Below are positions 6,362 to 40,709 of a stretch of DNA of 64,000 nucleotides, one piece after another. Each line of letters starts with the position of its first letter. Within the stretch, counting starts at the first letter, position 1. The notes beneath the pieces were generated by a model. It had not been told where the DNA came from and did no database searches. It was given only the letters and a program-made list of their open reading frames with translations. This stretch comes from Steroidobacter denitrificans (GTDB taxonomy: Bacteria; Pseudomonadota; Gammaproteobacteria; Steroidobacterales; Steroidobacteraceae): contig NZ_CP011971.1 of the NCBI RefSeq assembly GCF_001579945.1, forward strand, positions 1,700,001 through 1,764,000, in the 5' to 3' direction. A program made the translations under genes and the position numbers.

Positions 6362-6369
6362 GCAGCCTG

Positions 6370-15206: not shown

Positions 15207-15243
15207 TTCGAGCCGGTGTGAGCGAGCCAACTTCGCATATATG

Positions 15244-17061: not shown

Positions 17062-17091
17062 CCTCGTACGCTGCCGCCTGGCCTGAGCGTC

Positions 17092-19379: not shown

Positions 19380-21174
<1,795 letters not shown>

Positions 21175-24309: not shown

Positions 24310-26355
24310 TCAGCGCAGCGCCGACCAACCCGCATCCGCCGCGAAACGTTCCCCATGCGACTCACGCAGTTTCTCGAGGCAGGCCAGGATCTCCGTCACG
24401 CCCCTCTGACGGGCATAGCGCAGAGGGCCGCCCAGGAACGGTGCGAAACCGGCGCCGAAAATGACGCCCGCGTCCACCAGATCCTCATCCTCCACCACCT
24501 GCTCGCGCAGCACGGCCACGGCTTCGTTGATCAGCGGCAGCAGCAGGCGGTCCTGCAGATCCTCAGGAGCCGCAGCGGCACCGGCGGAGGGCTTCACCGG
24601 TTTGCCGTCACGCCAGACATAGAAGCCTTCACCGGTTTTTTTGCCAAGTTTCCCCAAGGCCTGTCTCGTGGTCAAAAGGGTCGGTAACTGGATGTCCGGA
24701 GCCAGAAACACCTGGCTGACCCCGGCGATCACGTCCAGGCCGACCATGTCAGCCAGTTCGATGGGCCCCATGGGCATGCCGAATGCCTCCGCAGCCCGGT
24801 CGATATGGATGAGCGCAATACCTTCCTCGGCCGCACGCAGAGCTTCGCCCAAATAAGGCATCAGGACGCGGTTCACCAGGAAACCGGGAGAACTACGGCA
24901 GGGTAGGGGCAGCTTGTCGAGACGGCGCGCGAAGGCAAGCCCGGCTCGCAGCACGCCGGCGTCGGTATCGCGTGTATGGATGACTTCCACCAGCGGCATA
25001 TGTGCCACCGGGTTGAAAAAATGCAGTCCGATGAGCCTCCGGGGCGCCGCCAGTTTGTCTGCCAACCGTTCCAGCACGATGCTGGAGGTGTTGGTGGCCA
25101 GTAGCGCACTCGATTTCAGGCGCGGTTCCACCTCCGCATACAGCGATTGCTTGGCCTCCAGATTTTCGAAGATCGCCTCGATCACCACGTCCGCATGTGC
25201 GACGCCTTGCCCCTCGACATCCATACGCAGACGCGCCGAGGCTGCTGCACGCCGGGCCTCATCCTGATATCGCTTCTCGAACAATCGCTGTGCACGTTCC
25301 AGCGCGGGCTTCACGTATTCCACAGCGCGATCCTGCAGGGTGACCGTCAGACCTCGCAGTGCGCACCAACTGGCGATATCTCCGCCCATCACGCCGGCAC
25401 CTATCACGTGCACGTGCTGGACGGGTTCCTTGCCGGCTTGGTTGGCATCCGTTCTACCCAGGGATTTGAGCCGATCCTGCAGAAAGAATACCCGCACCAG
25501 ATTTCGGGAAGTGGGCGAACACAACAGCCGTGCCATGGAGTGCGCTTCCGCCTCATAGGCACGTTCGCCGCGTCCGCCATGGCGCTGCCACAGATCGACC
25601 AGGGCGTAGGGTGCCGGGTAGTGCGCGGGACGTACCTGGCGGGCCACCCGCGAACGCAGCTGTCCGGCGACGATCGGCCGCAGCGCTGCACTATTGAGCA
25701 GGCGATTCTTGAGGGAAACCCGCCGCCTGGGCGGCGGATGGGTCGCAAGTACGCGTGCCTGAGCAGCCAATTCCCGGGGCGGGGAAAGACGGTCTACCAA
25801 TCCCAGCTGTAACGCTTGTTTCGGCCGAACCATGCGTCCTGTCAGCATAAGGTCCAGTGCCGCGATCGGGCCGGTGAGCTGCACCGCCCGGACAGTACCC
25901 CCGAACCCCGGATGCACCCCCAACTGCACTTCGGGAAAACCCAAGGTTGCGGATACTTCGTCCGCCAGGACGCGATAGCGGCATGCCAGTGCCATTTCCA
26001 GCCCGCCTCCGAGCGCATGGCCGTTGATGGCCGCCACGGTGACGCATTTCAGGGCGGCGAGCCGATCCAGAACCCGCTGGCCGGCGCGAATCAGGGCATA
26101 GGCCTGTTCCGGAGTGTCGATGTCGAGGAATTCCTTGATGTCGGCGCCGGCGATGAAGCCCTGCTTGGCAGAGGTCAGGATCAGAGCTTTCGGCAGGTTC
26201 GCCTCGATGTGTGCCAGCTGCTCGCCGAGTTGCTCCATGACGTCGCGCGACAGGCTGTTGGTCGAAGCACCCACCTTGTCCAGCGACAGCCAGGCCAGCC
26301 CTTCCGTATCCGTCTGCAGCCGCCAGTGTGCAGGACGGTGTGCCGTATCGGTCAT
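24310..26355 (-). CDS. Bifunctional enoyl-CoA hydratase / 3-hydroxyacyl-CoA dehydrogenase
   Basis: The 681-aa FadB/FadJ-like enzyme catalyses two steps of fatty-acid beta-oxidation. The N-terminal crotonase domain has AGADIKEF, NGHALGGGLE and LGFPEVQLGVHPGFGGT. The NAD-binding domain begins near residue 319 with GAGVMGGDIA, and HFFNPVAHMPLVEVI is the dehydrogenase signature. ATG 26355 has GGAG 6 bases upstream; ATG 26367 is an alternative. No thiolase gene is adjacent, so it is not a fadBA operon. Confidence 0.9.
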   Translation of the reverse strand: MTDTAHRPAHWRLQTDTEGLAWLSLDKVGASTNSLSRDVMEQLGEQLAHIEANLPKALILTSAKQGFIAGADIKEFLDIDTPEQAYALIRAGQRVLDRLAALKCVTVAAINGHALGGGLEMALACRYRVLADEVSATLGFPEVQLGVHPGFGGTVRAVQLTGPIAALDLMLTGRMVRPKQALQLGLVDRLSPPRELAAQARVLATHPPPRRRVSLKNRLLNSAALRPIVAGQLRSRVARQVRPAHYPAPYALVDLWQRHGGRGERAYEAEAHSMARLLCSPTSRNLVRVFFLQDRLKSLGRTDANQAGKEPVQHVHVIGAGVMGGDIASWCALRGLTVTLQDRAVEYVKPALERAQRLFEKRYQDEARRAAASARLRMDVEGQGVAHADVVIEAIFENLEAKQSLYAEVEPRLKSSALLATNTSSIVLERLADKLAAPRRLIGLHFFNPVAHMPLVEVIHTRDTDAGVLRAGLAFARRLDKLPLPCRSSPGFLVNRVLMPYLGEALRAAEEGIALIHIDRAAEAFGMPMGPIELADMVGLDVIAGVSQVFLAPDIQLPTLLTTRQALGKLGKKTGEGFYVWRDGKPVKPSAGAAAAPEDLQDRLLLPLINEAVAVLREQVVEDEDLVDAGVIFGAGFAPFLGGPLRYARQRGVTEILACLEKLRESHGERFAADAGWSALR

Positions 26356-26453
26356 CGTAGGCTCCATGAAGGGTCTCTCAGGAAGAACGATTCGGGGACG
26401 GGTCGTGTTCGGGGCAAGTTCCTGGAGGCCGAATGATCGGAACGGTCAACTCT

Positions 26454-27200
26454 TCAGAAGGCTGCGCTGCGGATATCAAAGTCGCAGATCAGCGGCCGGT
26501 GATCCGAGTGTCGCACATCCGGCACATCGAAGCGGGAAATCGCAATGTCGTTCGAATACAGTACGAAGTCCAGCTCCTTGCGAGGATTGCGGCTGGGGTA
26601 GGAGGGCAATCCCAGCCGATTGGCGTTCTTGAGGCCGGAGGCTTCCATGAACAGGAAGATTTCATGGTCGCCCCAGAACGTGTTGAAATCCCCGGCGACG
26701 ATCACCGGCTTGCGCGAGCGTTTCACCAATTCATGCAGGTGACGTAGCTGATCGTGACGGTGGCGGAATTTCAAAGACAGATGCACCAGGAAGATAGCGA
26801 CTTCCTCGAGTTCGAGTTCGATGATCAGGCGCTTGATACCGGTCTCGAAATAATGAAAACGCTCGCCTTCCACCCGCGGCGCAGCCAGGAAGGCGTTGCC
26901 CTGTTTGCGCACGATCGGCACCCGCTGGTTGAGCGAGCTCGTGCCATACTTGCACTGATAGGTTGAATAGTGCCCCAGCGAATCGGCGATCTGCTGGGCC
27001 TGATTCACCAGACCGGAACGGATCGAGCCGGTGTCGATTTCGATGAGCCCGACCAGGTCCGGATCCAGGGACTTCAGGTATGCGGTGATGCGTTCGAGTA
27101 CCCGCGAATTGCTGCGCAGATAGCCCGCACCTGGCACGGGAAGATGAAAGGTAGGGCCAGTACCCGTGGCATAGCGGATGTTGTACAAGACAAAACGCAT
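26454..27200 (-). CDS. Endonuclease/exonuclease/phosphatase family hydrolase
   Basis: The 248-aa protein has the DNase I-like fold: MRFVLYNIRYATG at the start, a metal-binding Glu in LVGLIEIDTGS, PVIVAGDFNTFWGD and the closing VRHSDHRPLICDF. The substrate (DNA, phosphoinositide-like or other phosphoester) cannot be told from sequence. No signal peptide is seen, so it is cytoplasmic. It is divergent from the TIR-like gene. Confidence 0.82.
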   Translation of the reverse strand: MRFVLYNIRYATGTGPTFHLPVPGAGYLRSNSRVLERITAYLKSLDPDLVGLIEIDTGSIRSGLVNQAQQIADSLGHYSTYQCKYGTSSLNQRVPIVRKQGNAFLAAPRVEGERFHYFETGIKRLIIELELEEVAIFLVHLSLKFRHRHDQLRHLHELVKRSRKPVIVAGDFNTFWGDHEIFLFMEASGLKNANRLGLPSYPSRNPRKELDFVLYSNDIAISRFDVPDVRHSDHRPLICDFDIRSAAF

Positions 27201-27377
27201 CGTGGCGGCTGGCGCAGGCGATATCGGCTAAATCGTGATGGGCGCATTTTACCTTACAGCTGCGCTCCACGCTGGCTTGCGGACGGTCGCCCCTTCCCGA
27301 GGCGGATTCCTGGATTAGAATGCGGGCTTAGTGAACGAAAGCAAACGCTGCGCGACGAGCGCTGCGGGGGGCGTCAA

Positions 27378-27839
27378 GTGGGCAGCATTTCCCAGCAGGA
27401 TCCGGTACGTGTATTCGTGAGCCACGCGTTCGAGGCATCGGACGACTATCATCGTGTGTTCGAATACCTGGAAAGTTCTCACAACTTCTATTATCGCAAT
27501 TGCAGCGATCCGGAGAGCAAAGCCGGAGCCGACCGCGAGGCGCAGAAGGAGGAACTGCGCAAACAGATAAATCTGGCGGAGTGCATCATCATTCCCTCGG
27601 GGCAGTACGAGCGCTATCGTGACTGGATCGACTTTCAGCTCAACTGCGCCAAGGGTTTCAATAAACGGGTCATCGTACTGGAGACCTTCGGCGTGAAGCA
27701 GAAGCTGCCGGTGCAGCTGGAAGCGCTGGCGGACGAAGTCATCGAATGGAACGAGCGCGAAATCGCCGATGCGATCCGGCGCCAGGCTCGCCACGAAGAT
27801 ACGGCGCGCTGGGACGTCATCGAATTCAAGCTGGACTAA
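27378..27839 (+). CDS. ThsB-like TIR-domain protein (MTH538/DUF1863 type)
   Basis: The 153-aa protein is a single TIR-like domain. VRVFVSHAFEASDDYHRVFEYL is the first strand and helix. IILPSG-type IIIPSGQYERYRDWIDFQL and AKGFNKRVIVLETFG match the ThsB family of Thoeris defence systems, where TIR proteins turn NAD+ into signalling molecules after phage sensing. No ThsA-type effector is adjacent; the next gene is a convergent unknown. The GTG at 27378 is the only plausible start, with a G-rich ribosome site. Function is inferred from family resemblance only. Confidence 0.7.
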   Translation: MGSISQQDPVRVFVSHAFEASDDYHRVFEYLESSHNFYYRNCSDPESKAGADREAQKEELRKQINLAECIIIPSGQYERYRDWIDFQLNCAKGFNKRVIVLETFGVKQKLPVQLEALADEVIEWNEREIADAIRRQARHEDTARWDVIEFKLD

Positions 27840-27870
27840 GCGAAACGATCACACCGCGACGAAAGCCGGT

Positions 27871-28206
27871 TCAGCCTTCGCCGACAGCCCGCAGTTTGGG
27901 GCGCTGCATCGTCTGCTGACGAGACAATGTGTCGAGCATGCCGACGATGCGTACCGCGATTCCGCCGGCTTCCCTGTCCGACATTTTGCGCACCGTGGCC
28001 TGCACCGCAGTTTCGCCACGCAAGGGGGGCACACTGCACATGCAGCTCGACAGGTGCGAGAATTCATCGCGGATTTCTTTCGGCAACTCCTCGTGATCCA
28101 GATCAGCCAGGTGGTTGCGGTAGGCTTCCACCAGTCGATGCTTGATCGGGCCGGCCGACGCAAGAATGATCGTGGCCGCGAAAATATGCTCCCAGGCGGT
28201 GCTCAT
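27871..28206 (-). CDS. Hypothetical protein, 111 aa
   Basis: This alpha-helical cytoplasmic protein was not recognised. It begins MSTAWEHIFAATIILASAG and contains AYRNHLADLDHEELPKEI and two adjacent cysteines in SSCMCSVPP. The ATG at 28206 has GGGAG 8 bases upstream; ATG 28221 is an alternative. It ends 31 bases from the end of the TIR-like gene in convergent orientation, so the two may share a terminator but not a transcript. Confidence 0.6.
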   Translation of the reverse strand: MSTAWEHIFAATIILASAGPIKHRLVEAYRNHLADLDHEELPKEIRDEFSHLSSCMCSVPPLRGETAVQATVRKMSDREAGGIAVRIVGMLDTLSRQQTMQRPKLRAVGEG

Positions 28207-28525
28207 CCAATTCACTCCCATCAAGTGCCCCAGAGGCGGATCCGCACGCCGCTGTCGCGCGAGAGACGGCCAGATCGATCGGCAGCGCACAGCGGCGGGA
28301 AAGCTTAGAAAGTACTTTAATACCCTGTGGCTTTTCTTACGGCCACTCAGGCATCTATAGCTGGAATATACTCCAGCTTATTCGAAAGGCAAGATGCTCT
28401 GGAAGGGTTTTATCAACAATTAATCTTCGGAACACAGCGCTTCGGCATGACGCGGCAAGGTTGCCACGCTGCGCATCACGCGTCTGCCATCGCGGGTTCA
28501 GGCCCGTGCGGTATCGCAGATCGCG

Positions 28526-28545
28526 GGTCTTGCTTGTTCAAGACC
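28526..28545. repeat. Short inverted repeat
   Basis: GGTCTTG at 28526-28532 and CAAGACC at 28539-28545 form a perfect 7-bp stem with a 6-base loop, 13 bases before the large hairpin. Confidence 0.7.
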
Positions 28546-28558
28546 GTCCTGAGGTGCC

Positions 28559-28627
28559 AGTCCCGCCCATGGTTCTTGCCGGCCGTGAATCCCGAAGGCA
28601 CGGCCGGCAGGAACCATGGGCGGGACT
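28559..28627. repeat. 29-bp inverted repeat (large hairpin)
   Basis: The arms are 28559-28587 (starting AGTCCCGCCCATGG) and 28599-28627 (ending CCATGGGCGGGACT). They pair over 29 positions with one G-T wobble and an 11-base loop (AATCCCGAAGG). No T-run follows on either strand and no transposase flanks it. It could be a small palindromic mobile element, a structured RNA or a protein-binding cruciform. Confidence 0.85.
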
Positions 28628-28787
28628 GTACTTCTATGCGATCATGAAATCGTGGGCGATCATGGAGCTGTGGGGCTCACGCCGATCGTAGCGCCGACAT
28701 GCCTTTCATCGCAGGCCGTGCGCCTGTCGGATTTTTCCTGATTTTCGCCTGGGCTGAAATCCCTGGCCCCACCTGCCGGAGAACCTC

Positions 28788-29066
28788 ATGAGCGGAGTCA
28801 GCGCCGTCGTCCTGATCAAGGCCGAAACCGGCCTCGTCAATGAACTTGCCCAGCAGTTGGCCCGATTGCCGGGGGTCACCGAAGTATTCTCGGTCGCGGG
28901 CCGATACGACCTGGTCGCCCTGGTACGGGTGCGCGAAAATGAAGATCTGGCCGAGGTCATCAGCCATCAGATCCGCAAGCTGGAAGGTGTCATCGGCACC
29001 GAAACCCTGATCGCATTCCGGGTCTACACCAAGGAGCAGCTCGCCGCGGTGGTAGATGTGGATTAG
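28788..29066 (+). CDS. Stand-alone Lrp/AsnC ligand-binding domain protein
   Basis: The 92-aa protein consists only of the RAM (ligand-binding) domain of Lrp/AsnC regulators. AVVLIKAETGLVNELAQQL and GRYDLVALVRVRENEDLAEV are visible, with no DNA-binding helix-turn-helix. Such proteins form oligomers, and some bind amino acids or modulate full-length Lrp proteins. It is monocistronic. Confidence 0.82.
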   Translation: MSGVSAVVLIKAETGLVNELAQQLARLPGVTEVFSVAGRYDLVALVRVRENEDLAEVISHQIRKLEGVIGTETLIAFRVYTKEQLAAVVDVD

Positions 29067-29312
29067 ATCGAAAGGATCACCACCGCCCAAATAAACCGGG
29101 ACCGGGCTACATGTCGGATCGCTGATCGAGGAGGGCGGGAAGGTACCCCCGAACTGGAGACACACTCAATTTGGGTTGAAGGAACCGCTAAAAACCGGCT
29201 TATTGTGGAAAAATTAGTGAATATAAACAATATATAGCAATGAATTTATAGAAATAAACTTAGAGTTGACCGCCCGCTCTGATCGCGATGCGGACGCCAT
29301 TTTTTGAAAGTG

Positions 29313-29519
29313 TTATTGGACCGTGAATCCGATATGCAAGGTGACCTGCCAGTATGCAATTTTGCCGTCGTCGATATTACCGCGGGTTTCGATGACCTTG
29401 AACCAGCGCATGTTGCTGACGCTATCGGACGCTTTTTCGATAGCGATGCGAATGGCATCGTCAGCACTCTTGCGTGAAGAGCCGGTGATCTCGATCGTCT
29501 TGTAGACATGATCGTTCAT
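29313..29519 (-). CDS. Dodecin, flavin-binding dodecamer
   Basis: The 68-aa dodecin forms a dodecameric shell that stores or buffers flavin or CoA. The conserved pattern is MNDHVYKTIEITGSS...SADDAIRIAIEKAS...RWFKVIETRG, then YWQVTLHIGF. The tryptophan in RWFKV is the flavin-stacking residue. A strong AGGAGG lies 6 bases before the ATG at 29519. Confidence 0.93.
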   Translation of the reverse strand: MNDHVYKTIEITGSSRKSADDAIRIAIEKASDSVSNMRWFKVIETRGNIDDGKIAYWQVTLHIGFTVQ

Positions 29520-29609
29520 GGTGTCCTCCTGTCGGGAAATATCGCTGCGTAGATATATTGAATAGCAGAGCACATGAATAATGGAAATGGGGAATTGCGC
29601 TCATCCTTG

Positions 29610-29957
29610 TCAAAGCCCGTCCATGCGATTCACGCCATCCCGGCGACGCTGAAGCTCCCGTAACAACTGCATATTGAGCCCATAGGCGGTAAGTTCACCG
29701 ATAGTGAATGCCGATCCATCGGGGCTATGAAGGCGCCCGTCCTTGCGCAACTCCCAGCCATCCCAGTCGGACCTGATGAACTGGAGTTGACCTCTCAGCG
29801 TGAGTTCCAGCCAACGTATGACCAGCCGTGGTGCCAGACCCGTCTTGATCCAGCCTCTTGCCGCCCGCTCAGTGCTATGCGTGAGATGCGCCAGACGCCG
29901 CGCGCCGTAATTGGCGAAGCCTCGCAACGGCTCCATGTCCAAGGCTGCATTGTCCAT
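29610..29957 (-). CDS. DUF3653-like phage-associated protein (copy A)
   Basis: The 115-aa product resembles small phage-associated proteins (DUF3653-like, recalled from memory). ARRLAHLTHSTERAARGWIKTG looks like a degenerate helix-turn-helix; WDGWELRKDGRLHSPDGSAFTIGEL follows. It aligns over most of its length with the gene at 32913-33194 (shared pattern: LAxLTxxTxRAARxWxxxG, then DG/RG, SPxG, GEL, REL). It lies just left of dif, transcribed away from it. Confidence 0.6.
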   Translation of the reverse strand: MDNAALDMEPLRGFANYGARRLAHLTHSTERAARGWIKTGLAPRLVIRWLELTLRGQLQFIRSDWDGWELRKDGRLHSPDGSAFTIGELTAYGLNMQLLRELQRRRDGVNRMDGL

Positions 29958-30040
29958 GGCGGCGGGTTTTCAGACGATCAGCAGGCAGTTACGGGATTCT
30001 GACAGCCTGCCGGAGAAGCGCTTTCACAGCCACCTTATCA

Positions 30041-30068
30041 ATTGCGCATAATGTATATTATGGTAAAA
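30041..30068 (+). other. dif: XerCD recombination site dif (chromosome terminus)
   Basis: The XerC arm reads ATTGCGCATAA, the centre TGTATA and the XerD arm TTATGGTAAAA. The Escherichia coli dif has GGTGCGCATAA, TGTATA and TTATGTTAAAT, so the centre and inner arms are identical and differences sit at the outer ends and one XerD-arm base. It lies in an AT-rich gap between two divergent phage-type genes. XerC and XerD resolve chromosome dimers here during FtsK-driven segregation. Confidence 0.92.
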
Positions 30069-30133
30069 AACGTATGAGGCTATTAGCCGCCTAAAATTAA
30101 AGATTTACAGCTAATCGCCGTCCTTTAGCCATT

Positions 30134-30137
30134 TAAC
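30134..30137. repeat. Target-site duplication TAAC, left of IS21-family element
   Basis: TAAC directly precedes the left end TGCAGGATTTC and is repeated at 32908-32911 directly after the right end. Four-base duplications are normal for IS21-family elements. Confidence 0.85.
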
Positions 30138-30225
30138 TGCAGGATTTCGCGCAATGGACCCGCCCGATTTCCTCTGATTGGACCCACCTTGCGTGGGTTA
30201 CCGGCGGAGCCGCTGGCGAGGAGTT

Positions 30226-30984
30226 TTACGCGTCCTTTTTGCGCGAAGCAAGTTTCTTGGCCTTGACACCGCGGTAGCTCTCGCCGGTGACCTCGATGGT
30301 CAGCGCCGAGTGCTGCAGCCGATCGAAGATGGCGTCTGCGATGACGGTGTCCGCGATCACCTCGCTCCAGTGAGCGAGGGGCAACTGGGAGGTGAACACC
30401 ACGGATTTGCTGCTCGATCGCTCTTCCAGGATCTCGCATAGATCCTGAGCCTCGGTGGCGGTCAGTTTGCGGCTGCCCATCTCATCAAAGATGATCAGAT
30501 CTAACTTGGCGAGCTTGTCCCGATAGCGCAGATACGTGCCGCTGGAGCGTGCCAGATTGAGATTCTCGAGCCACTTGGTGATGCTGGTGAACATGACGGA
30601 TTTCCCGGTAGCACACGCGTGAAGTCCCGCGGCCTGCGCCACGAAGGTCTTGCCGACGCCAGTGGGTCCGAGGAGCATCAGTGGCCGTGCATCTGCGAGC
30701 CAGTCGAGGCTTTGGATCTCTTTGATCTGTGCTCGAGTGAGCGAACGCTTCGCGGTGAAGTCGAAGTCTTCGAAGGCCGGACGATCGCGGAACCGGGCGG
30801 CTTTGATGCGATTAGCGGTTTTACGCTGTTGCCGGTAATCGACTTCGGCTTGCACCAACTGATTGAGCAACTCGCTGCTACTGAGCTGATCGCGGGTGGC
30901 CTCGGCGAGTGCGTTGTCCAGCACGCCGAGCATACCGAGCAGCTTCATCTCGGCCAACTGATTTTTTACCATGGCAATACTCAT
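30226..30984 (-). CDS. istB: IS21-family helper ATPase IstB
   Basis: The 252-aa DnaA/DnaC-like AAA+ ATPase assists IstA in target selection. Walker A is GPTGVGKT, Walker B LIIFDEMG, and QLPLAHWSEVIADTVIADAIFDRL is the IstB signature. The start overlaps the istA stop by 4 bases (ATGA), giving coupled translation. It looks intact. Confidence 0.95.
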   Translation of the reverse strand: MSIAMVKNQLAEMKLLGMLGVLDNALAEATRDQLSSSELLNQLVQAEVDYRQQRKTANRIKAARFRDRPAFEDFDFTAKRSLTRAQIKEIQSLDWLADARPLMLLGPTGVGKTFVAQAAGLHACATGKSVMFTSITKWLENLNLARSSGTYLRYRDKLAKLDLIIFDEMGSRKLTATEAQDLCEILEERSSSKSVVFTSQLPLAHWSEVIADTVIADAIFDRLQHSALTIEVTGESYRGVKAKKLASRKKDA

Positions 30985-32540
30985 AGCGGTAGATTCTCCT
31001 GGGCTGCAGTAGATGAGAGAGAAGGTTTGTCAGCGGCCTGCAGCGCTGCGCCGCCAACGTACCGGAGCATGGGATTGCCGGGCTTGCGCACGATGTCGCG
31101 CTCGGGCTGGGAGTTCATCGATTGTTTACGCGCCTGAGCGAGCAATTCCTTGAAGTACGGGACACGGATCCGGTTGTAGCGGCGCATGGCGGCAATGGCT
31201 GCGGCGATACGTACGCTGGCAAGTTCGTGTCCAACAAGATTGATCTCTTTGGTGCATGCCGAGACCAGCCCCATGGCGCGACGGATATGTGCAAAAACGT
31301 CGTCGTTGAACAACTCGATGAAGAGCGCGTGAAGATCGGCGTGGATAAAACGCGACTGTGACAACAGCCGCTGCGGTGTCGACTCGTAATAGGCATCGGA
31401 GTTCGGCGGGAAGTGTTCCTTGATCTTGATCCGCTGGCCGGATTTCATGCGGCAGCGTGGATGGACCGCCAGGCGTTCCAGGTTCAGGAAGATCTCGACC
31501 TGGTTATCGGTGAGCTTGATTCGTAGCGTTTTATGACGATGGATGTGCGGCGCGCTGTAGTAATCGCCTTCCACGGCGAGGAAGCAATCGGGATGCAGTT
31601 TCGCCTCCTTCCACTCCCCGCCATCGTACTCGGCTGTGGGCAACGCCTTGAGCGCGGCCCTTTCGATTGTCTCGAAGCGTTCGCGGCGCGAGACGCCAAA
31701 GCGTCGGTGCCGCTGGTCATTGATCCGCTCAACGCATACCATGAGCGCTCGATTGATCTCGGCGATGCAGGTAAATCGTGAGTGACGAAAGCGGAAGCGA
31801 AAGTAGCGACCGAGGATTTTTACCAGTCCCTCGACGATCGCCTTGTCCTTCGGCCTTCTGACGCGCGCCGGAACGATTGCCGTGGAAAAATGCGCGGCCA
31901 TGTGTGCATAGTTTTCGTTCAGATCGGGGTCGTACAAGTGACATTTGACGACCCCTTGCCGCAAACAATCAGGTACGGTGACGTGAGGCACGCCGTTGTA
32001 ATAGGCGTACATGCGTCGATGGCTGGCGATCCAGTTGCGGCTCTTCATATCCTCCGCCGCCCAGGCAAACAGCAATTGGCTGAAGCCCAGGCCGGACACG
32101 AACACATAAGCTTTGTGGATTTCGCCGGTCTTGATGTCGTACCACTCGATCGGATCGCCGGCGTAATCGACTTCGACGCGCTCCCCGGGCTCGAACGTTC
32201 GGGCGGTAACGCTGGCGTTGCGACACTGCGGGAACTTGCGATAAAACTGCTTCCAGAAGTTGGAGTACGTCGTCAGCGTCTGCGCCTTTTCTTCCCAAAT
32301 GAACTTCAGCGGATGACCCAGCCCCAGATCGTGAATGATCACCGGCCAATCCAGCTGCGACATCCACAGTGGATCCGGACTCGCGGCGATCGCGTGTGTC
32401 ACGCGCACGCCGTCGCGGATCTCGCGCACCAGGCGGCGTGAGCAACTCAACGCGCTCGCGATCTCACGTACGCTGCGGCCCTCGGCGAGCCGTCGTTTGA
32501 TTTCTTCATATCTCTGCACCGTCAATTCCCTCCGCGCCAT
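30981..32540 (-). CDS. istA: IS21-family transposase IstA
   Basis: The 519-aa DDE transposase starts with a helix-turn-helix (MARRELTVQRYEEIKRRLAEG, then SVREIASALSCSRRLVREI). The catalytic core has VEVDYAGDPIEWYD (first Asp) and ARVRRPKDKAIVEG (Glu at the end of the core), then the SAPHIHRHKTLRI region. ATG 32540 is chosen because the frame upstream (to 32735) is low-complexity and lies near the element end. Confidence 0.93.
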   Translation of the reverse strand: MARRELTVQRYEEIKRRLAEGRSVREIASALSCSRRLVREIRDGVRVTHAIAASPDPLWMSQLDWPVIIHDLGLGHPLKFIWEEKAQTLTTYSNFWKQFYRKFPQCRNASVTARTFEPGERVEVDYAGDPIEWYDIKTGEIHKAYVFVSGLGFSQLLFAWAAEDMKSRNWIASHRRMYAYYNGVPHVTVPDCLRQGVVKCHLYDPDLNENYAHMAAHFSTAIVPARVRRPKDKAIVEGLVKILGRYFRFRFRHSRFTCIAEINRALMVCVERINDQRHRRFGVSRRERFETIERAALKALPTAEYDGGEWKEAKLHPDCFLAVEGDYYSAPHIHRHKTLRIKLTDNQVEIFLNLERLAVHPRCRMKSGQRIKIKEHFPPNSDAYYESTPQRLLSQSRFIHADLHALFIELFNDDVFAHIRRAMGLVSACTKEINLVGHELASVRIAAAIAAMRRYNRIRVPYFKELLAQARKQSMNSQPERDIVRKPGNPMLRYVGGAALQAADKPSLSSTAAQENLPL

Positions 32541-32806
32541 CCAGTTCTCCCCGTGCGAGCAAATTGCACGACGATAAGCGGATTGGCTGTGTGAGCGGGC
32601 CGGCGCCCGCGACTGGGTGGTGATTGCGGAAACGACGGTGCTCGCCGTAGAAGGCGCTGCGCCACGATCGAGCGCCCGGGGGGCGGGGCTCGCTCCGGGG
32701 CTTACCCCCGAATAGGACATCGCCTGGGTTGACATCGCCGTTTCGCTCCTGAGGCCGCGGCGGCGCGCAACAGCGCGCGCCGCCGGGCTCGAAAAGCAGC
32801 TCCGGC

Positions 32807-32902
32807 GGGTGGTCCCATTGCGAGGAAATTGGGTGGGTCCATTCCCAGGAAATCGAGTGGTCCCATTCCTAGGAAATTAGGCGGGTCCAATCACAGGAAA
32901 TC
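32807..32902. repeat. Four 24-base tandem repeats in the IS21 right end
   Basis: Units at 32807-32830, 32831-32854, 32855-32878 and 32879-32902 share the pattern GGTGGGTCC-AT-AGGAAAT. They are probable IstA binding sites; two inverted copies are at the other end. Confidence 0.88.
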
Positions 32903-32907
32903 CTGCA

Positions 32908-32911
32908 TAAC
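32908..32911. repeat. Target-site duplication TAAC, right of IS21-family element
   Basis: Second copy of TAAC, followed immediately by AATGG, the start region of the DUF3653-like gene. Confidence 0.85.
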
Positions 32912-32912
32912 A

Positions 32913-33194
32913 ATGGACAATTCCACCTACGGACTGCCAGCGTGGCAACTGGCAGCACTCAGCGGCACCCACATCGACACGGCGCGACGCTGGAAACGCG
33001 CCGGACAAATACCACGCCAAGCAGCCGCCCTAATCAGCATCCGCTTACATGGCGAACTTGGAACAATCGATCCGGAATTCGAAGGATTCATCATCCGACG
33101 CGGATCCATTTGGACGCCAGAAAACGCGGAGATCCGCCCCGGAGAACTGCGCGCCATCCCGTACAGGTCACAGCAAATCCGGGAATTAGACTGA
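32913..33194 (+). pseudogene. DUF3653-like phage-associated protein (copy B), 3' end replaced by an IS
   Basis: It starts MDNSTYGLPAWQLAALSGTH and encodes 93 aa ending IRELD. The last Asp codon and the stop TGA belong to the terminal repeat of the IS1634-like element at 33191. Joining across the 6-bp duplication gives IRELECRLAEPQQYRLL and a stop at 35163-35165, so the element removed the native last 16 residues. It is homologous to the gene at 29610-29957. The IS21 element sits just before its ATG and replaced its native leader. It may still be translated as a slightly shortened protein. Confidence 0.75.
33185..33190. repeat. Target-site duplication ATTAGA, left of IS1634-like element
   Basis: ATTAGA precedes the left inverted repeat CTGAAGTTCTT and recurs at 35120-35125 after the right repeat. 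Confidence 0.88.
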
Positions 33195-33225
33195 AGTTCT
33201 TGTGAAGAAAGAGTAAATTTATTCG

Positions 33226-33252
33226 CAGGCTCAGATACTTAACCTGAGCCTG
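33226..33252 (-). terminator. Hairpin at the left end of the IS1634-like element
   Basis: CAGGCTCAG and CTGAGCCTG pair over 9 bp with a 9-base loop, 17 bases after the transposase stop in its direction. It may end the transposase transcript or block read-through. Confidence 0.6.
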
Positions 33253-33268
33253 GGGTGCTCGCGCCTGG

Positions 33269-34975
33269 CTACACGGTGATCTTCTGCAACAACTCCAGTG
33301 CGCGCTGTTGTTTCGAGTTCGCGGTGGTCACCGCGGCGAACGTGGATGTCGACTCGCCGGGCAGCGCGGCGCGGCAGGTATTTCGCACGATCGTGGACAA
33401 CTCCGCCAGGAGCGTTGAGAAGCTGTGGGCGGGCGTTGCGTCGGGAAGCCGACCCGTCAGGGCTTTGCGTTTCGCGGCCTCAGAGCGCTTCGCCGGCGCC
33501 ACCGGATCGCGCGTGGCTTTGGCGGCCTGGTCTTCGTCCGCAAACAGCAGCTCGCGCCAGGCTTCGCGCATGTGCCATTCGATGTAGTAGGCCAGTACGC
33601 ACAGCAGGATATGTGCGCGTACTCGCTCGGCGAGCCGATGATGGATCGGCCGGATGCGCAGATCCACGCTCTTCAGCGTTCGGAACGCGCGCTCTACTTG
33701 AGCCAACGATTTGTATTGGCGCACGCATTCGGCCGCGTCCATGATCTGGGCCGGGACGCTGGTGCGGATGACATAGAGCCCATCGAGGCGGGCTTCGGTT
33801 TCGATACCGTCGGTCTTGCGCTCGAAGCCGAAGAGATCCTCGCGGATATCGAGTGCGAAGTGCTTGGCCATCTTGTATTGATTGACTATGCGGCCAACCC
33901 GCACACCGATGTTATCTTGGCCTCGCAAGCGCCCCTTGGCCACGGACGCGCGGATCTTCTCGAGCTGCTTTTCGGTGGCGCACAACAGCTCTTCGCGCTT
34001 GTGTGCGCGCAGTTGCGCGAGCGCCGGGTTACGGCAGGCAACCAGGCGTTCACCGGGATAATCGGGGTGCTCAAGCTCGAACAGATTGCGCTCGTCGAAC
34101 AGATCCAACTGCACATGTCCCTGGTTCACCAGCGTGCGGATGGAGGTGCTCTTGAGCGCGGTGATCCAGCGTACGCCTTGTTCATTCGTCAACGTATGGA
34201 TGGCTTTCTGGGAGATCATGCCGCGATCACCCACCATCACCAGCTGCTCGACCCCAAACTCCTGCTTCAGCCGCGCGATTTCCGGCATCAGCGTTTGCGG
34301 GTCTGAGGTGTTGCCCTCGTAGACCGATACAGCGACCGGACAGCCCCGGCGGTCGGTGAGCAAGCCGTAGTTGACCTGCAGCATCCCCCGCTTACCGTCG
34401 CGGCTGTAGCCGAGTTTCGCCAGCGGGCAGGTGGTTCCCTCGAAATAGCTCGACGACAGGTCGTAGAGCACTACGCTGTCGGGACCCAGATGCCGCTGGG
34501 CCAGCTTTTTCTGGATCGCGCCCTGGCGCTCGAGCAGCCAGTCCATGGCGGCGTAGAGTTCCGTCTCGCTCGCATCCGCCACGCCGAAGTCCTGCGCGAG
34601 GGTGGTGGTGTGCCACCAGCGGGTGGTGGCGAGCTTGGTGCGCGGGCAGAGCACCCGGGCGGCCAGCATGGCCAGCACCAGATCGCGTTCGCGTGAGGGC
34701 TTCGTGCCCAGCAGTGAACTCAGGCGCAGCTTGGTCATGGCCAGGCGCACCGCCTCGACGTGGCCGTGTGCCTGCGATCCCACGACGTTGAACAGCGTCT
34801 GGAGTGGGTACAGGGGCTCACCCTTGAGAATCGCGCGCAAGGCATGGATCTGCTCATCGGTGAGGCTGGACAAGTTCGCGATCGTGCGCTTCCTGACCGT
34901 GTTTCCCTCGCGGAACGTCTCGCGCAGCAGGTAGGCGGGGCGGGACTTACGGTTGGGTACAACATCGATATGCAT
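33269..34975 (-). CDS. IS1634-family transposase
   Basis: The 568-aa DDE transposase has the first Asp in VVLYDLSSSYFEG, the second in LVMVGDRGMIS and the Glu in YKSLAQVERAFRTLKS (Y-2-R-E-R-F-like signature). The N-terminus MHIDVVPNRKSRPAYLLRE is typical of this branch. No frameshift is seen, so the element may be active. Confidence 0.93.
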   Translation of the reverse strand: MHIDVVPNRKSRPAYLLRETFREGNTVRKRTIANLSSLTDEQIHALRAILKGEPLYPLQTLFNVVGSQAHGHVEAVRLAMTKLRLSSLLGTKPSRERDLVLAMLAARVLCPRTKLATTRWWHTTTLAQDFGVADASETELYAAMDWLLERQGAIQKKLAQRHLGPDSVVLYDLSSSYFEGTTCPLAKLGYSRDGKRGMLQVNYGLLTDRRGCPVAVSVYEGNTSDPQTLMPEIARLKQEFGVEQLVMVGDRGMISQKAIHTLTNEQGVRWITALKSTSIRTLVNQGHVQLDLFDERNLFELEHPDYPGERLVACRNPALAQLRAHKREELLCATEKQLEKIRASVAKGRLRGQDNIGVRVGRIVNQYKMAKHFALDIREDLFGFERKTDGIETEARLDGLYVIRTSVPAQIMDAAECVRQYKSLAQVERAFRTLKSVDLRIRPIHHRLAERVRAHILLCVLAYYIEWHMREAWRELLFADEDQAAKATRDPVAPAKRSEAAKRKALTGRLPDATPAHSFSTLLAELSTIVRNTCRAALPGESTSTFAAVTTANSKQQRALELLQKITV

Positions 34976-35119
34976 GCGCGTATTCTACGCTAAATTGGCC
35001 CCGTTGCAACTATTTACATGGGTACATATTTTGCGCAGAAAGACCACACAAGACTCGCAAGCCACTGATCCGCAACGGCTAACTAATTACCCAACGGGGG
35101 AATTCAGAAAGAACTTCGG

Positions 35120-35165
35120 ATTAGAATGCCGACTCGCAGAGCCGCAGCAATATCGCCTCCTGTAG
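35120..35165 (+). pseudogene. Detached 3' end of DUF3653-like gene (copy B)
   Basis: ATTAGA (second target duplication) leads in frame into ECRLAEPQQYRLL and TAG. It matches the expected C-terminus of the gene at 32913 and is related to the end of copy A (LLRELQRRRDG). Confidence 0.7.
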
Positions 35166-35353
35166 ACCCGGCCCGAGGCAATTCCGTCGCCGAGACGCCT
35201 GCCGGCAACGCTTCGACACCCTCACCGCTCACAAGATCCGCGCCAGGTCAAAGCACCTGTCACGGATCTTTCCGACCTGAATCTCACCGACCACAAATAA
35301 CGCTGCGGAAAGAATGTTTGCGCCTGGGGCGAGCGGGCTGTTTTTTAAACTGA

Positions 35354-35369
35354 TGTTTCACGTAGAACA
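35354..35369. promoter_or_regulatory. parS-like 16-mer
   Basis: TGTTTCACGTAGAACA matches the ParB site TGTTTCACGTGAAACA at 14 of 16 positions. It also encodes FHVE in a frame entering the next small gene. A lone degenerate site at the terminus may be chance. Confidence 0.3.
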
Positions 35370-35391
35370 ATCAATAGTTGATCGCTCATCA

Positions 35392-35633
35392 ATGAAGAAA
35401 AAAATCATGAAAATGCCACGATTCAAATACACCGATGCCCGTGCCACGCTCTACACCTTCCACGTCGACCACCTATCGACGCTAGAAATCGTCGGAGACC
35501 CTGATAACGCCGCTTAGAATGGCTCATCCGCCGAGAAGACGGCAGCGTGGAAAACCATTCCAACCATGGATACGGCCAGTCAACAATCGCGCTACGCGAC
35601 GGACTAATCTTCTTTCACGGCCTCAGCAGCTAA
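35392..35633 (+). pseudogene. Small hypothetical gene broken by a one-base deletion
   Basis: The first frame (MKMPRFKYTDARATLYTF to TLEIVGDPDNAA) stops at TAG 35515-35517. The next frame continues at once with EWLIRREDGSVENHSNHGYG and then STIALRDGLIFFHGLSS to TAA 35631. Restoring one T (GCT-TAG to GCT-TTA-GAA) joins them as DNAALEWLIRR. ATG 35407 or 35392 is the start. Product unrecognised. A sequencing error is the main alternative. Confidence 0.7.
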
Positions 35634-35696
35634 ACCGCAACAAGACGCTCCACGAAACACAATCCTGATATACTGTCAACCCTTAGAGGACCACCC

Positions 35697-35939
35697 ATGG
35701 CCAACATAGAAAACCTAATCATTGAGCATCTACGCGCCATCCGCGCAGACATCGCTACCCTAAAAGACGATGCGCGCGAAATAAAGAGCCGAATCACTAA
35801 CATCGAAGCCGGCATTGCAGGCCTAAAACGCGACAATGCCCACAGCTATAGCGAAATAGCCGACCAACACCTGAGATATGACAAATTAGCCGAACGGATA
35901 GAGCGCATAGAAAAGCGCTTACAGCTCACCGAGAGCTAA
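35697..35939 (+). CDS. Small coiled-coil protein, 80 aa
   Basis: MANIENLIIEHLRAIRADIATL begins a protein of charged heptads (IERIEKRLQL) predicted to be one long coiled coil. AGAGGA lies 7 bases before the ATG. Similar short proteins occur in phage and plasmid-derived islands, but the function is unknown. Codon use is more AT-rich than in flanking housekeeping genes. Confidence 0.65.
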   Translation: MANIENLIIEHLRAIRADIATLKDDAREIKSRITNIEAGIAGLKRDNAHSYSEIADQHLRYDKLAERIERIEKRLQLTES

Positions 35940-35946
35940 CACACGA

Positions 35947-35966
35947 AAGGGGCCGAAAGGCCCCTT
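35947..35966. terminator. Bidirectional hairpin after the coiled-coil gene
   Basis: AAGGGGCC and GGCCCCTT form an 8-bp stem with a GAAA tetraloop. It lies 8 bases after the coiled-coil stop and also marks where similarity of the TonB-receptor pseudogene ends, so it may be the island boundary. Confidence 0.65.
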
Positions 35967-37730
35967 GTACTCCGCATCCAGATAACCTACGGCAACATTG
36001 AAGCTCAGGCTGTCCGTTGCGTTGGCGGACACTTCCAGTTCCACGCCACGGGTCTCGGCCGAGGCGGCGTTCGTGACGATTGTCTCCGTGCCCGTCGGAG
36101 ACAACGGCTCCGGCTGCACGATATCGACCTGCAAGCCATCATATTTGTTGTAGAAACCCGTCAAATTTGCTCGCAGACGCCGCTCGAACCAGCTGGACTT
36201 GATGCCGATCTCATAAGCATCGACCTTTTCCGGTTTGAACGGACCGATCGAGGTCGGCGTCTGGCCGCGACCGCTGAAACCACCCGCCTTGTAGCCCTTG
36301 GAATAGCTGCCATAGACGTTCAGATCATCGGTAAACTTGTACTGAAGGATGGCGCGCGGCGTGGTCTCGGTCGAATCGTAGTCGGCCTCGCACCGCGTAA
36401 ATCCAACCATGTCTGCCGCGACGCAGCGCACGCCGCCGTAGTCTCCGGACGCGAAGAGGATTGTCGTATGAAAATCTTTCTCATCACGGGTAACGCGCCC
36501 GCCGAGCGTCGCGGAAAATGCGTCGGTAAAGTTATAGGTGCCCTCGGCGTACACCGCGTACGACTTGGATGTCTGCCCCGTGATATTCGTTATTACCGTG
36601 GCGGTGGGCAGGCCGATCAGCATACCGCCGGCGGTCGCTTCGATTTCATACGCCAGCCCGTGATCGAACGCAGAGTACCGATATCGGTGTCCCAGGTAAC
36701 ATCCAGCACCGCACCGCTGGATTCGATGTTCTGCCGGAACTGGCCGTCCGGCTTCGTTACATAGGGATTCAACCCGGATGTGAAACGATCGACTTCCGCA
36801 ATCGGGACGCCCGCACCGAGCGCCAACGCCGCAAAGACGCTCTGTTGAGCCTGCGGAATGGCCTGCTGCGCGATGGCGCAATCCGCGGCCGACAGTGCCG
36901 GCGAACACGAAAGCGGCGTCGTGGAGTGAGCAGGGATGAATCCCTGCGTGCCGCTGCGATCGCTCGTATGGTCGACGATAAGGTCAATGGTCCAGTCGGC
37001 CGTCGGCGTATATCTGAGAGACGCGCGCACGGCCGTCACATCGGTGAACGACGCGTCCGTCGGCTGCGGCGTGAACTCGTTCCTCCAGAAACCATCCGAG
37101 CTCAATGACAGCGCTGAAATCCTGGCCGCAAGCTTACCGTCGATCAAGGGCAGATCCGCGGAAGCGCGCAGATTGAGTGTGCCTTCATTGCCATAGGTCA
37201 CGATTGCCTTATACGCCTCCAGCCCCGACGGGCGGGCCGTGCGCACGTTGATTGTCCCGCCGATGGTGTTACGACCGAACAAGGTACCCTGCGGGCCGCG
37301 CAGGATCTCAACCTGCTCGATATCGAAGAAATCGGTCAACGAACCGATATTGCGCCCGATGAATACGCCGTCGATGGTCACGCCAATCGCCGGATCGAAA
37401 CTGGACTCGACATCCTGGTAACTGATGCCACGGATCGCAAAGTACGCCGCCTGTCCAAACGCTCCACCCGCGTCCAGCACCACGTTCGGCGCCACGCCCT
37501 GCAGGTCGGCCAGGGTGTTTGCGAAGCGCTGTTCCAGCATCGCCCGGTTGATCGCCGACACCGCGACCGGCGTGTCCTGAATGCTTTCCGCCCGGCGGCG
37601 CGCCTGGACAATGATTTCTTCGAGTTGTGCGCCCTCAGTTTCAGTCGCTCTCGCCGTTTCCTGGGCCAACGACGGCGCCGCCACCACGCTCATCGCGCCC
37701 AATGCAAATAAATGGAACCTGTTTCTCATC
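35967..37730 (-). pseudogene. TonB-dependent receptor, frameshifted and 3'-truncated
   Basis: The N-terminus MRNRFHLFALGAMSVVAAPSLAQ is a signal peptide. LEEIIVQARRRAESIQDTPVAVSAI and VEILRGPQGTLFGRNTIGGTINV are the TonB-box region and plug. The frame breaks near 36655 (ITGWRMKSK then stop); the barrel continues in another frame from GLAYEIEATAGG to VAVGYLDAEYK, where similarity ends at the hairpin. About 590 codons remain of a normal 750 or so, and the final beta strands are missing. It resembles Sphingomonas-type receptors often found with catabolic genes. Confidence 0.85.
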
Positions 37731-37846
37731 TTCGTTCCCCTCGCCAAAAACTCCGTCGAAAAGATCGTACCCATATCAGGACCACTGCCCTGCACACGTC
37801 GAGTCGGCGGCGCGCCGGACAGCCAGCCGCAAACCTTCGGCTCGGT

Positions 37847-38072
37847 TCAGTACACCACGGAGCCGCCATCAGCCACAACGACGGCCCCGGTCATGTAGCT
37901 TGCGGCATCGGACAACAGAAACAGCGCAACCGCCGATCCCTGCGTACGCCGCCTGGCGGCAGGCAATGACGGTAGCGCCCTCGTGCGCCAGGGCGATGCC
38001 TGCTGCGCGGCCAATCCCGGAACTCGCTCCTGTGACCAGCGTAACCTTCCCCGAGAATCGCTGCTCACTCAT
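37847..38072 (-). pseudogene. Short-chain dehydrogenase with large internal deletion
   Basis: The start MSEQRFSGKVTLVTGASSGIG and AGIALAHEGATVIACRQ are a normal nucleotide-binding N-terminus. The typical C-terminus ALFLLSDAASYMTGAVVVADGG follows in a shifted frame after only about 15 residues. Roughly 170 codons containing the catalytic Tyr-Lys are gone. Confidence 0.8.
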
Positions 38073-38571
38073 CGCCCATCACCTTCTATTGGTGATTGCG
38101 TACTGTACGTACCGTTGCGTCGCAGCCCCGCCCATTGACGCTCAAACCACCGACAAGAAGACGTCAGCGAAAGCGGGTTTCCGCTACGCCTTTCGCTGGT
38201 CACGAAGCGCCTAAGTACATGCTTAACTATTAGTCGATCCACCGTCTCGTAAATACCCGTCATCCTGGGCAGGAAAACGTAGGTCTGCTGCCTATAATTG
38301 ACCGCACAACCCTGCTGATCCGCTCCCTGCGGTACGCAGCACAGCCATCGTATTCATTCCCGGCTGCCGGCTGCCGGCTGCCCACCAAACGGCGCCTAAA
38401 GCATTAATAAACAATCGTGCCTGTTTTTTTATAGTATAGTGTAACATTATCAGTTCCAAGCCTTCATCAGAAGATCTAAGTACTTTGGGAATCAATCCAA
38501 GTGGCATCGGTACCGTGGCGCGATTGTGATCGTGCAGGTAACGACTCGATCAACGACTGTGGAGATCGAAC
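38073..38571. other. About 500 bases without a supported gene
   Basis: No coding region is supported. The segment contains a short AT-rich stretch (TTTTTTTATAGTATAGTG near 38424) that could hold a promoter for the following broken gene. Confidence 0.5.
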
Positions 38572-38823
38572 ATGGGTATCAGAACATTGGGATCGGAAGA
38601 ACTGGGCGCGAAACAGGCCATCATCAAGGTGATTCACCGCGATTGCCGCAGCATGGACCGTACGGATGAAGATATCGGCAAGTTCTGCTGGCATCCAGGC
38701 GGAACCTGTGACTACGCACCACTTTATTAAGGGTCCATTCGAAGGGTTCATCGAATGGCTGCGGCCGGTGCACGCGACGATGCTCACCACACGTCATACC
38801 GTCAGCAACGTCCTGATCGAATC
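38572..38823 (+). pseudogene. SnoaL-like/NTF2-fold protein, frameshifted fragment
   Basis: MGIRTLGSEELGAKQAIIKV and HRDCRSMDRTDEDIGKFCWHP lead to a TAA at 38728. The next frame continues KGPFEGFIEWLRPVHATMLTTRH and SNVLIES. Together they match the N-terminal half of SnoaL-like dehydratase/cyclase domains common in aromatic and steroid catabolism. The rest is replaced by an unrelated flavoprotein fragment. Confidence 0.65.
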
Positions 38824-39122
38824 AGATTTATTTTCAAGAAAATCAGCTCGGCCGGCTCGGTGCGCGTGTTCGCCTGGAAACGACGACGAACCGGGACATG
38901 ATCAGATCACTTTATCCGGATACCATCGTCATCGCCACGGGTTCCACTCCTCGCCGGCCGCATGATACCGCCAACATTGGGCTGCCGCACGTGATCCAGG
39001 GCTGGGACGTGCTGGCGGGCAAGGTGAGGCCGGGCAGCGCGCCGCGTGAGGTAATGGCGCCCGGCCTCGTATCGAAGGATTTCCCGAACCGGGCCGCCGT
39101 CACTAGGTGCAAACCACAGTGA
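38824..39122 (+). pseudogene. Fragment of an OYE-type reductase, nucleotide-binding part
   Basis: IYFQENQLGRLGARVRLE and SLYPDTIVIATGSTPRRPH, then LPHVIQGWDVLAGKVRPG, match the NAD/FAD-binding C-terminal half of 2,4-dienoyl-CoA reductase-like Old Yellow Enzymes. It has no start and ends early. A complementary N-terminal fragment lies at 45345-46299 on the other strand. Confidence 0.7.
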
Positions 39123-39138
39123 CCGTGAGGGATCAACC

Positions 39139-39924
39139 CTATGTGGCAGACGAGCTTAACAGCGCCTCGATTTCCTTCTGCCGAGGATTTCGCCGCAGCG
39201 TCAAGCCGCCGTTCACCTGAAGATTCTGCCCAGTCATGAAACATGCATCGGAAGCGAGCCACAGCGCGGCCTCGGCCACATCCTCTACCGTGCCAATCCG
39301 TCCGAGCGGATATTCTTTCCGGAACAGTTCAACGAAAGCGGGAGTTTGGAACGCCTCCGAGGTCATCGGCGTATCGGTCAGCCCGGGTGAAATCGAATTT
39401 GCCCGGATACCGCGCTCGCCGTATTCATTGGCGATGCACCGAATGACATGATCGATACCGGCCTTCGTTCCCATGTAGGCAGCATGGTTATCGAGCATGA
39501 TCGTCGCCGTAGCCGAAGAGATCTGTATGATCGATCCGCTGTCCGCCATTCCCTTGAGGACTTCCTGGAAAAACTGGAATGGACCGGTGAACTGAACCGC
39601 GGTCATGTAATCCAGATCGGCGCGTGTCGTCTCGAGAAACGGCTTCAGCAATCCATAGCCGGTCGCGTTTATGGCGACATCGAGCTTACCGAACCGGTCT
39701 AGCGTTGCGGCCACGAGAGCTCGAAGATCGGCCTGATTCGTTATGTCGCAACCGCAGCTGGACCCGTCGATCTCATCCGCCAGATTCCGCAAATTGTCCT
39801 TGTTGCGCCCGGCCACCATGACTTTGGCCCCCTCGCGAGCGAAACGGCGCGCCATCACCTGACCCATGTTGCCGGCGCCCGCGGCGCCGAGGATGACTAC
39901 AACCTTTTCCTGAATGCTATGCAC
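39139..39924 (-). CDS. Short-chain dehydrogenase/reductase
   Basis: The 261-aa enzyme has cofactor motif GAAGAGNMG, GCDITNQ, the catalytic Ser in QISSATATIM and YMGTK. The substrate is unknown. The glycine motif is an AGAGNMG variant of the usual TGxxxGIG. It heads a run of - strand catabolic genes. Confidence 0.85.
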   Translation of the reverse strand: MHSIQEKVVVILGAAGAGNMGQVMARRFAREGAKVMVAGRNKDNLRNLADEIDGSSCGCDITNQADLRALVAATLDRFGKLDVAINATGYGLLKPFLETTRADLDYMTAVQFTGPFQFFQEVLKGMADSGSIIQISSATATIMLDNHAAYMGTKAGIDHVIRCIANEYGERGIRANSISPGLTDTPMTSEAFQTPAFVELFRKEYPLGRIGTVEDVAEAALWLASDACFMTGQNLQVNGGLTLRRNPRQKEIEALLSSSAT

Positions 39925-39971
39925 CGCTTTTCTCCTGCGAAAGCCACTTCACGCAGACCATCACCGTAAAA

Positions 39972-40709
39972 CTAGACCGTGGTCCATCCGCCATCCACAT
40001 CCAGGATCATGCCGGTCGCGTAGTCGCAATTGATGAGAAACATCGCCGCTGCCGCCATATCGCGCGCCGTTCCCGATCGCTTCAATGGAATCGAGTTGTC
40101 GATAAAGCTCCGGCGAACTATGTCATCGGGCAATTGGCCATCGATTGCGCGCTCGTACTCCTCGTCCGTGAGGATCAGGCCAGGAGACAAGACGTTTACC
40201 CGAATGCCGCGAGGTGCCAACTCGAACGCGAGCTGGCGCCCCATGGAATTGACCGCGCCGCACACCGCCGTGCCGCCGGCGTAGTTAGCGATGGCCGCCT
40301 TCGCGGCAATCCCCGAACAGAGCATGATCGACCCGCCGGCAGGCATCTTGGGCACGGCATAGTGGCAGGCGTACATCTGGCCGAAGAATCTTCCGGCAAA
40401 AAGCTCTACCCACCGCGCCGGCGGCAACTCGTCGATCGCGCCGAATACCCATCCTCCGGCGCAAGTCACCAGCACATCCACGCGATCCAACGGCTCGAAG
40501 AGGGCCTTCACCTGGGTTTCATCCGCGACATCGACGCTGATGCCGACCGCGCCGTGACCGATCGAGGTAACCGCCTTCTCCAGGCGGTCTGCGTCGCGAG
40601 CGGCAACAATGACCTTTGCGCCTTCGGCCGCGAACCGACGGCCGATCTCGAGGCCTATATTCGAGCTGCCGCCGGTAATTACGGCAACTTTGCCATCAAG
40701 TATACCCAT
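39972..40709 (-). CDS. Short-chain dehydrogenase-like protein lacking the catalytic lysine
   Basis: The 245-aa protein has TGGSSNIG, VDVADETQ, CAGG (in place of NNAG) and the C-terminal GMILDVDGGWTTV. Where catalytic YxxxK is expected it reads NYAGGTAVCGAVNSM, so the Tyr is kept but Lys is Thr. It may use a different mechanism or be a non-classical SDR. Same strand and cluster as its neighbours. Confidence 0.8.
   Translation of the reverse strand: MGILDGKVAVITGGSSNIGLEIGRRFAAEGAKVIVAARDADRLEKAVTSIGHGAVGISVDVADETQVKALFEPLDRVDVLVTCAGGWVFGAIDELPPARWVELFAGRFFGQMYACHYAVPKMPAGGSIMLCSGIAAKAAIANYAGGTAVCGAVNSMGRQLAFELAPRGIRVNVLSPGLILTDEEYERAIDGQLPDDIVRRSFIDNSIPLKRSGTARDMAAAAMFLINCDYATGMILDVDGGWTTV

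Follow-up and report, generated by a model that had tools for sequence, protein, structure and literature searches.

How does a site that looks like the chromosome's own dif come to be flanked by transposases and small phage genes, and is it the working dif of this chromosome or one that mobile DNA brought in? The window analyzed here is a stretch of 64,000 nucleotides (G000:C1:1,700,001-1,764,000), and the site lies on its plus strand at 30041..30068. It reads ATTGCGCATAA-TGTATA-TTATGGTAAAA, comprising a XerC arm (30041-30051), the centre TGTATA (30052-30057) and a XerD arm (30058-30068), and this arrangement of two arms around a 6-bp centre in 28 bp is that of gammaproteobacterial dif. Comparison with the E. 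coli K12 dif, in the form printed in PMC2731167, finds 24 of 28 positions identical; the centre and the inner arms are the same as in E. coli and other Gammaproteobacteria, and the four departures lie in the outer arms, which is nothing unusual among the relatives seen. The chromosome, complete as a single contig of 3,467,246 bp, contains one match to the 19-bp core at up to 3 mismatches, and a search for a second dif under these terms therefore returned none. Shuffling the window 100 times yielded zero dif matches, and base composition predicts about 1e-5 exact 18-bp cores per such genome. Among relatives, the core is found at up to 2 mismatches in 45 of 59 genomes (46 of 60 with the own genome included). 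The original prediction of a near-canonical dif at this position, with the centre and inner arms of its gammaproteobacterial counterparts, is borne out by this 24/28 identity and by the single site, and judged from its sequence 30041-30068 is very probably a genuine dif, which would act as an ordinary site of chromosome separation after replication.

Resolution of chromosome dimers at dif by FtsK and the XerC and XerD recombinases is established for dif in general. The genome encodes XerD (389 bits, over the cut-off), FtsK_gamma (99.9 bits) and a second Xer recombinase, presumably XerC, which ranks next after XerD against the same model with 295 bits, short of that model's cut-off. Does the site also lie where replication would end? 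GC skew, followed in 20 sampled 20-kb stretches and two contiguous stretches of 240 kb and 187 kb, is positive in 9 of the 10 samples left of dif, the lone exception being positions 1-20,000 of the chromosome, which adjoin the apparent origin, and negative in all 10 samples to the right. The cumulative skew reaches its maximum at 1,735,000 within the contiguous 240 kb (1.60-1.84 Mb), less than 5 kb from dif, and its minimum at ~15 kb within the contiguous 187 kb around coordinate 1. The distance of dif from the half-way point is 3.6 kb when counted from coordinate 1, and ~19 kb separate it from the position that faces the skew minimum across the chromosome. On the minus strand, 37 copies of the FtsK-type motif GGGNAGGG are found in the 1.73 Mb to the left of dif, compared with 136 in the 1.74 Mb on the other side; on the plus strand, 100 of its 192 occurrences fall within the first 1.25 Mb. 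The FtsK-orienting motifs thus converge on dif, and their strand preference changes there. The total of 365 motifs is barely enriched over the 311 of the backward control, and the polarity partly tracks GC skew, so that the motif counts as supporting, non-independent evidence. The single site, the skew switch and the strand switch of GGGNAGGG together support the original prediction of a replication terminus, and the window dif would accordingly be placed by sequence as the skew-switch and terminus site opposite the origin. The skew switch, XerD, the second Xer recombinase, FtsK-gamma and the polar GGGNAGGG motifs are all features shared with the XerCD/dif systems of E. coli and Gammaproteobacteria.

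A further part of the original prediction, that genes on both sides run toward dif, holds on the right, where ORFs from a crude caller cover 23.3 kb on the minus strand and 4.5 kb on the plus strand, and is weak on the left, where they cover 15.6 kb on the plus strand against 11.6 kb on the minus strand (13 against 14 ORFs) and where the caller misassigned the strand of at least two genes (TIR and Lrp, both plus by Pfam). Among the eight named genes from 22.9 kb up to dif, six are on the minus strand, running away from dif, and two on the plus strand, running toward it.

The left-hand neighbours of dif recur near dif in relatives. These comprise a CRP-like gene and an enoyl-CoA hydratase type gene (both named by eye), the gene of a 248-aa protein (26454..27200, minus strand; exonuclease/endonuclease/phosphatase-like by eye), a TIR-like gene whose start codon is uncertain (27315..27839, plus strand; ThsB_TIR, PF08937, also phrog_6988) and a 139-aa ORF. 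In 20 dif loci from relatives, the TIR gene was matched 9 times and the 248-aa protein 8 times. Of the 9 loci with a TIR match, 8 have the left-side neighbours on the XerC side, whereas G011 has them on the other side. Closer to dif in the window are a gene with an Lrp/AsnC ligand-binding domain (28788..29066, plus strand; Pfam) and a dodecin gene (29313..29519, minus strand; Pfam). Dodecin had no match in the 20 dif loci nor in 59 loci collected with a neighbouring protein, whose named relatives (up to 91% identical) belong mostly to Steroidobacter and kin and place the organism in or near Steroidobacteraceae; a dif core at up to 2 mismatches lies inside 9 of these 59, and the others may have a core outside the locus. 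In G006 the Lrp-type gene ends ~50 bp from dif, leaving a near-empty site, whereas in the window the same interval spans ~970 bp and holds dodecin and a phage-type gene described below, a stretch absent from G006. An insertion on the XerC side would explain this difference. Host synteny on the right was not established by tblastn with 22 window stretches, which gave mostly low-identity matches, with the clear exception of G125, whose dif locus contains relatives of 55330-57907 (51-60% identity) within a few kb of dif, 25 kb nearer than in the window; the displacement may point to insertions or rearrangement on this side of dif. At 28558-28628, to the left of the Lrp gene, an inverted repeat has an 11-nt loop between 30-nt arms that are 97% complementary.

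Could the site nevertheless be a chance match or a phage-borne Xer site, with the working dif elsewhere? Such an origin is conceivable in that mobile DNA surrounds the site and filamentous phages carry dif-like sequences. However, the complete chromosome holds no other candidate within 3 mismatches, skew and motif polarity both switch at this one, and the host genes that adjoin it adjoin dif in relatives too, so that we consider this explanation extremely improbable.

The mobile DNA that the original prediction placed to the right of dif is indeed present. An IS21-type insertion sequence with inverted terminal repeats occupies about 30153..32902 (approximate limits, taken from these repeats), between dif and the right-hand phage-type gene. 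It carries, both on the minus strand, an istB-like ATPase gene (30226..30984; IstB_IS21, E 9.9e-63) and an istA-like transposase gene (30981..32735; Mu-transpos_C_2 over the cut-off, rve below it). At its right end, 32806-32902 consists of tandem copies of a 24-bp unit, with an inverted match at the left end. Beyond the right-hand phage-type gene follows a DDE_Tnp_1 transposase gene (33269..34975, minus strand; Pfam), which we take to be IS4/IS1634-like. To the right of the transposases, 35408-35939 contains a short frame that is interrupted and an ORF for a coiled-coil protein of 80 aa without a clear family assignment, possibly more mobile debris.

The phage-type genes are two members of the DUF3653 family, one on each arm of dif, and a whole-genome search found only these two in the own genome. 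The left gene, on the XerC side (29610..29957, minus strand), encodes 115 aa, matches PF12375 with 26.6 bits (cut-off 22.4), has its start codon 83 bp from dif and is transcribed away from it. The right gene, on the XerD side (32913..33194, plus strand), encodes a DUF3653-like protein of 93 aa and is likewise transcribed away from dif; its 18.1 bits, obtained in a Pfam-scanned stretch beginning at 32901, are below the same cut-off, and its relative in a prophage of G002, with which it shares 49% identity over 92 aa, is over it. Its distance of 3.0 kb from dif is due to the IS21-type insertion, and with that element taken out (approximate limits) its start would stand ~94 bp from dif. Both genes weakly match phrog_1668. 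Annotations and weak helix-turn-helix matches under the cut-off suggest that DUF3653 proteins are probably regulators.

Is the position of these genes beside dif peculiar to this chromosome? In searches for DUF3653, 60 genomes including the own yielded 9 matches, distributed over 8 of them (E<=0.05); 396 genomes of the order yielded at least 13, each in a different genome (E<=0.01), and 369 genomes of the class at least 6, from 4 genomes (E<=0.001). The order and class searches missed the window's two genes and are therefore insensitive, which makes their counts lower bounds. The non-redundant set numbers 23 matches (2 from the own genome, 13 from the order, 6 from the class and weak ones in G038 and G014). 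A dif core at up to 2 mismatches lies within flanks of up to 1.5 kb for the window's left gene, for 12 of the 13 matches from the order and for 3 of the 6 from the class; the window's right gene is counted with them at its 3.0 kb. As a control, 400 kb sampled from the own chromosome held no core within 3 mismatches. A position near a dif core is thus seen for 17 of the 23; 11 of these stand on the XerC side, the other 6 on the XerD side, and transcription leads away from dif in every case. For the six matches whose searched loci hold no dif core, the circumstances are as follows: in G313 and G439:C42 the sequence upstream of the match runs for only ~400 and ~190 bp before the contig ends, G504 has two copies with only a half-site in 18 kb, and the weak matches of G038 and G014 contain internal stops. 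These arrangements suggest that, across the genomes examined, DUF3653 is a marker for the end of Xer-integrated filamentous phages that lies next to dif, and the family could help to locate such prophages, and what is left of them, in terminus regions. A testable guess at its role is an att-proximal regulator, perhaps of immunity. A scan of viral contigs with the G002 DUF3653 protein confirmed no relative.

The rationale for linking DUF3653 to filamentous phages is based on the more complete elements. In G002, of the same genus, the order of genes is dif, DUF3653, Zot/pI, pVI-like, a large ORF in the pIII position and coat-like ORFs, followed by an ssDNA-binding protein, a rolling-circle Rep, an HTH regulator and a half-site composed of the centre and the XerD arm, 7.77 kb centre to centre from dif. 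This element looks like the intact state of a filamentous prophage. In G670, of the same class, 7.19 kb separate a hybrid site from dif, and relatives of XacF1 ORF9 and ORF11 lie inside. The same layout is found in the IMEX phages VEJphi and XacF1, where a DUF3653-like gene adjoins the att site and is transcribed away from it. ORF136 of VEJphi (20.4 bits, under the cut-off; a relative in VFJ reaches 24.3 bits, over it) belongs to phrog_1668 and starts 16 bp from the annotated dif-like att site, and ORF11 of XacF1 (20.7 bits, under the cut-off) has its start ~75 bp away from a dif-like sequence that ORF12 contains. In PMC5666396, the XacF1 authors place attP in ORF12 and describe destabilized integration upon loss of the 5' part of ORF12. 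The PHROGs label of phrog_1668 (L091:5403-5813) is 'tail assembly protein', which is odd for a gene of a filamentous phage.

Against this background the window is poor in phage genes. The two DUF3653 genes share with IMEX elements their location at dif, as does the G002 prophage, which has the wider gene set and the half-site. Unlike the IMEX phages, the window keeps DUF3653 only, one gene per arm: no other phage gene was found in the window, DUF3653 alone was matched when the proteins of the G002 prophage and XacF1 were compared with it, and assembly, Rep and coat genes of the IMEX type were not among the matches at its dif. No Zot match in the genome is over the cut-off, and one, far from dif, reaches 16.7 of the 20.3 bits required. 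No hybrid half-site of either element was recognizable in window positions 26001-40000, for which reason each is called a relic and not a prophage. Two candidates for such a site were set aside, namely the only XerC-half with 3 mismatches, at 35023 on the minus strand, which has the orientation opposite to dif and of which ~1 would be expected by chance (an estimate), and the 8-bp AATTGCGC at 29593-29600, beyond the left DUF3653 gene, which is too short.

Do two genes mean two phages? One alternative is that a single phage left a relic and that the second DUF3653 gene arose from it by local duplication and inversion around dif. The similar start distances, 83 bp and ~94 bp (IS21-type element excluded, limits approximate), would agree with such a history, but the two genes are only 30% identical to each other while the right gene is 48-49% identical to that of G002, and we regard the duplication as highly unlikely. 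Another alternative is that the DUF3653 genes are kept beside dif for use, for example by excluding further phages from it. Both reading frames have stayed open despite the lack of any other recognized phage gene, and five relatives carry short stretches that are bounded by dif and a half-site and enclose a DUF3653 gene, of 1.07 kb (G046), 1.21 kb (G028), 1.27 kb (G214), 1.90 kb (G125) and 2.49 kb (G275). Their half-sites occur at most 0.04 times per shuffled locus, and among the phage proteins searched DUF3653 alone was matched inside. Like the pdif modules of Acinetobacter plasmids, these stretches hold one recognized gene between dif and a half-site; they differ in that they are chromosomal, that one site is only half and that their mobility is putative. 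They may simply be deleted prophages. A more speculative version of the same idea sees in them single-gene 'dif cassettes', moved by the XerCD of the host and kept as guards of dif against arriving filamentous phages, of which the window would hold one worn copy per arm around a working dif assembled from two phage arms; this we consider doubtful. Retention for use is weakened by the patchy occurrence of the family (at least 13 of 396 genomes of the order) and by its being a normal component of the apparently complete G002 prophage and of phages. Moreover, the integration stabilizer of XacF1, ORF12, belongs to another family, DUF3693, so that its stability result is no test of DUF3653. The retention hypothesis is therefore unlikely in our estimation, though less so than duplication.

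We hypothesize instead, with a probability of roughly 0.88, that the site is the single dif of this chromosome and that filamentous phages exploiting Xer have integrated there on two or more occasions, of which only the att-proximal genes remain. Confidence in this reading is slightly lowered because three key DUF3653 matches fall under the cut-off and because of the ~19-kb skew offset. As the sequence would suggest, the FtsK translocase, steered by polar motifs on both arms, brings copies of dif together, and XerC and XerD would then resolve chromosome dimers by recombining around TGTATA. Filamentous phages that lack an integrase would borrow this reaction with an attP made of the centre and one good dif arm, and integration would rebuild dif on one flank of the prophage, with a hybrid half-site left on the opposite flank, the configuration seen in G002 and G670. 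The small DUF3653 gene, probably a regulator, would then adjoin the rebuilt dif and be transcribed away from it. In the window we infer two past integrations on opposite arms, each leaving its att-proximal DUF3653 gene, with the other phage genes and the hybrid sites since lost and the IS insertion coming later. Integration of filamentous phages at dif is described in PMC2731167, which also gives about a quarter of 161 dif sites as adjoining mobility genes. The window dif is a further example of this well-known kind and, as an annotation, useful but ordinary. DUF3653 is named in a single paper of the full-text literature searched, and among the matches listed there was no description of such DUF3653/dif relics.

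The outer arms of the site offer one more comparison. The own genome and G003 share both TTATGGTAAA and a right-side DUF3653 gene, and the att site of VEJphi has the same arm; GGTAAA is, however, also carried by three relatives in which DUF3653 was not matched (G020, G022 and G030), so that there is only a hint that the arms of the window dif may be phage-derived.
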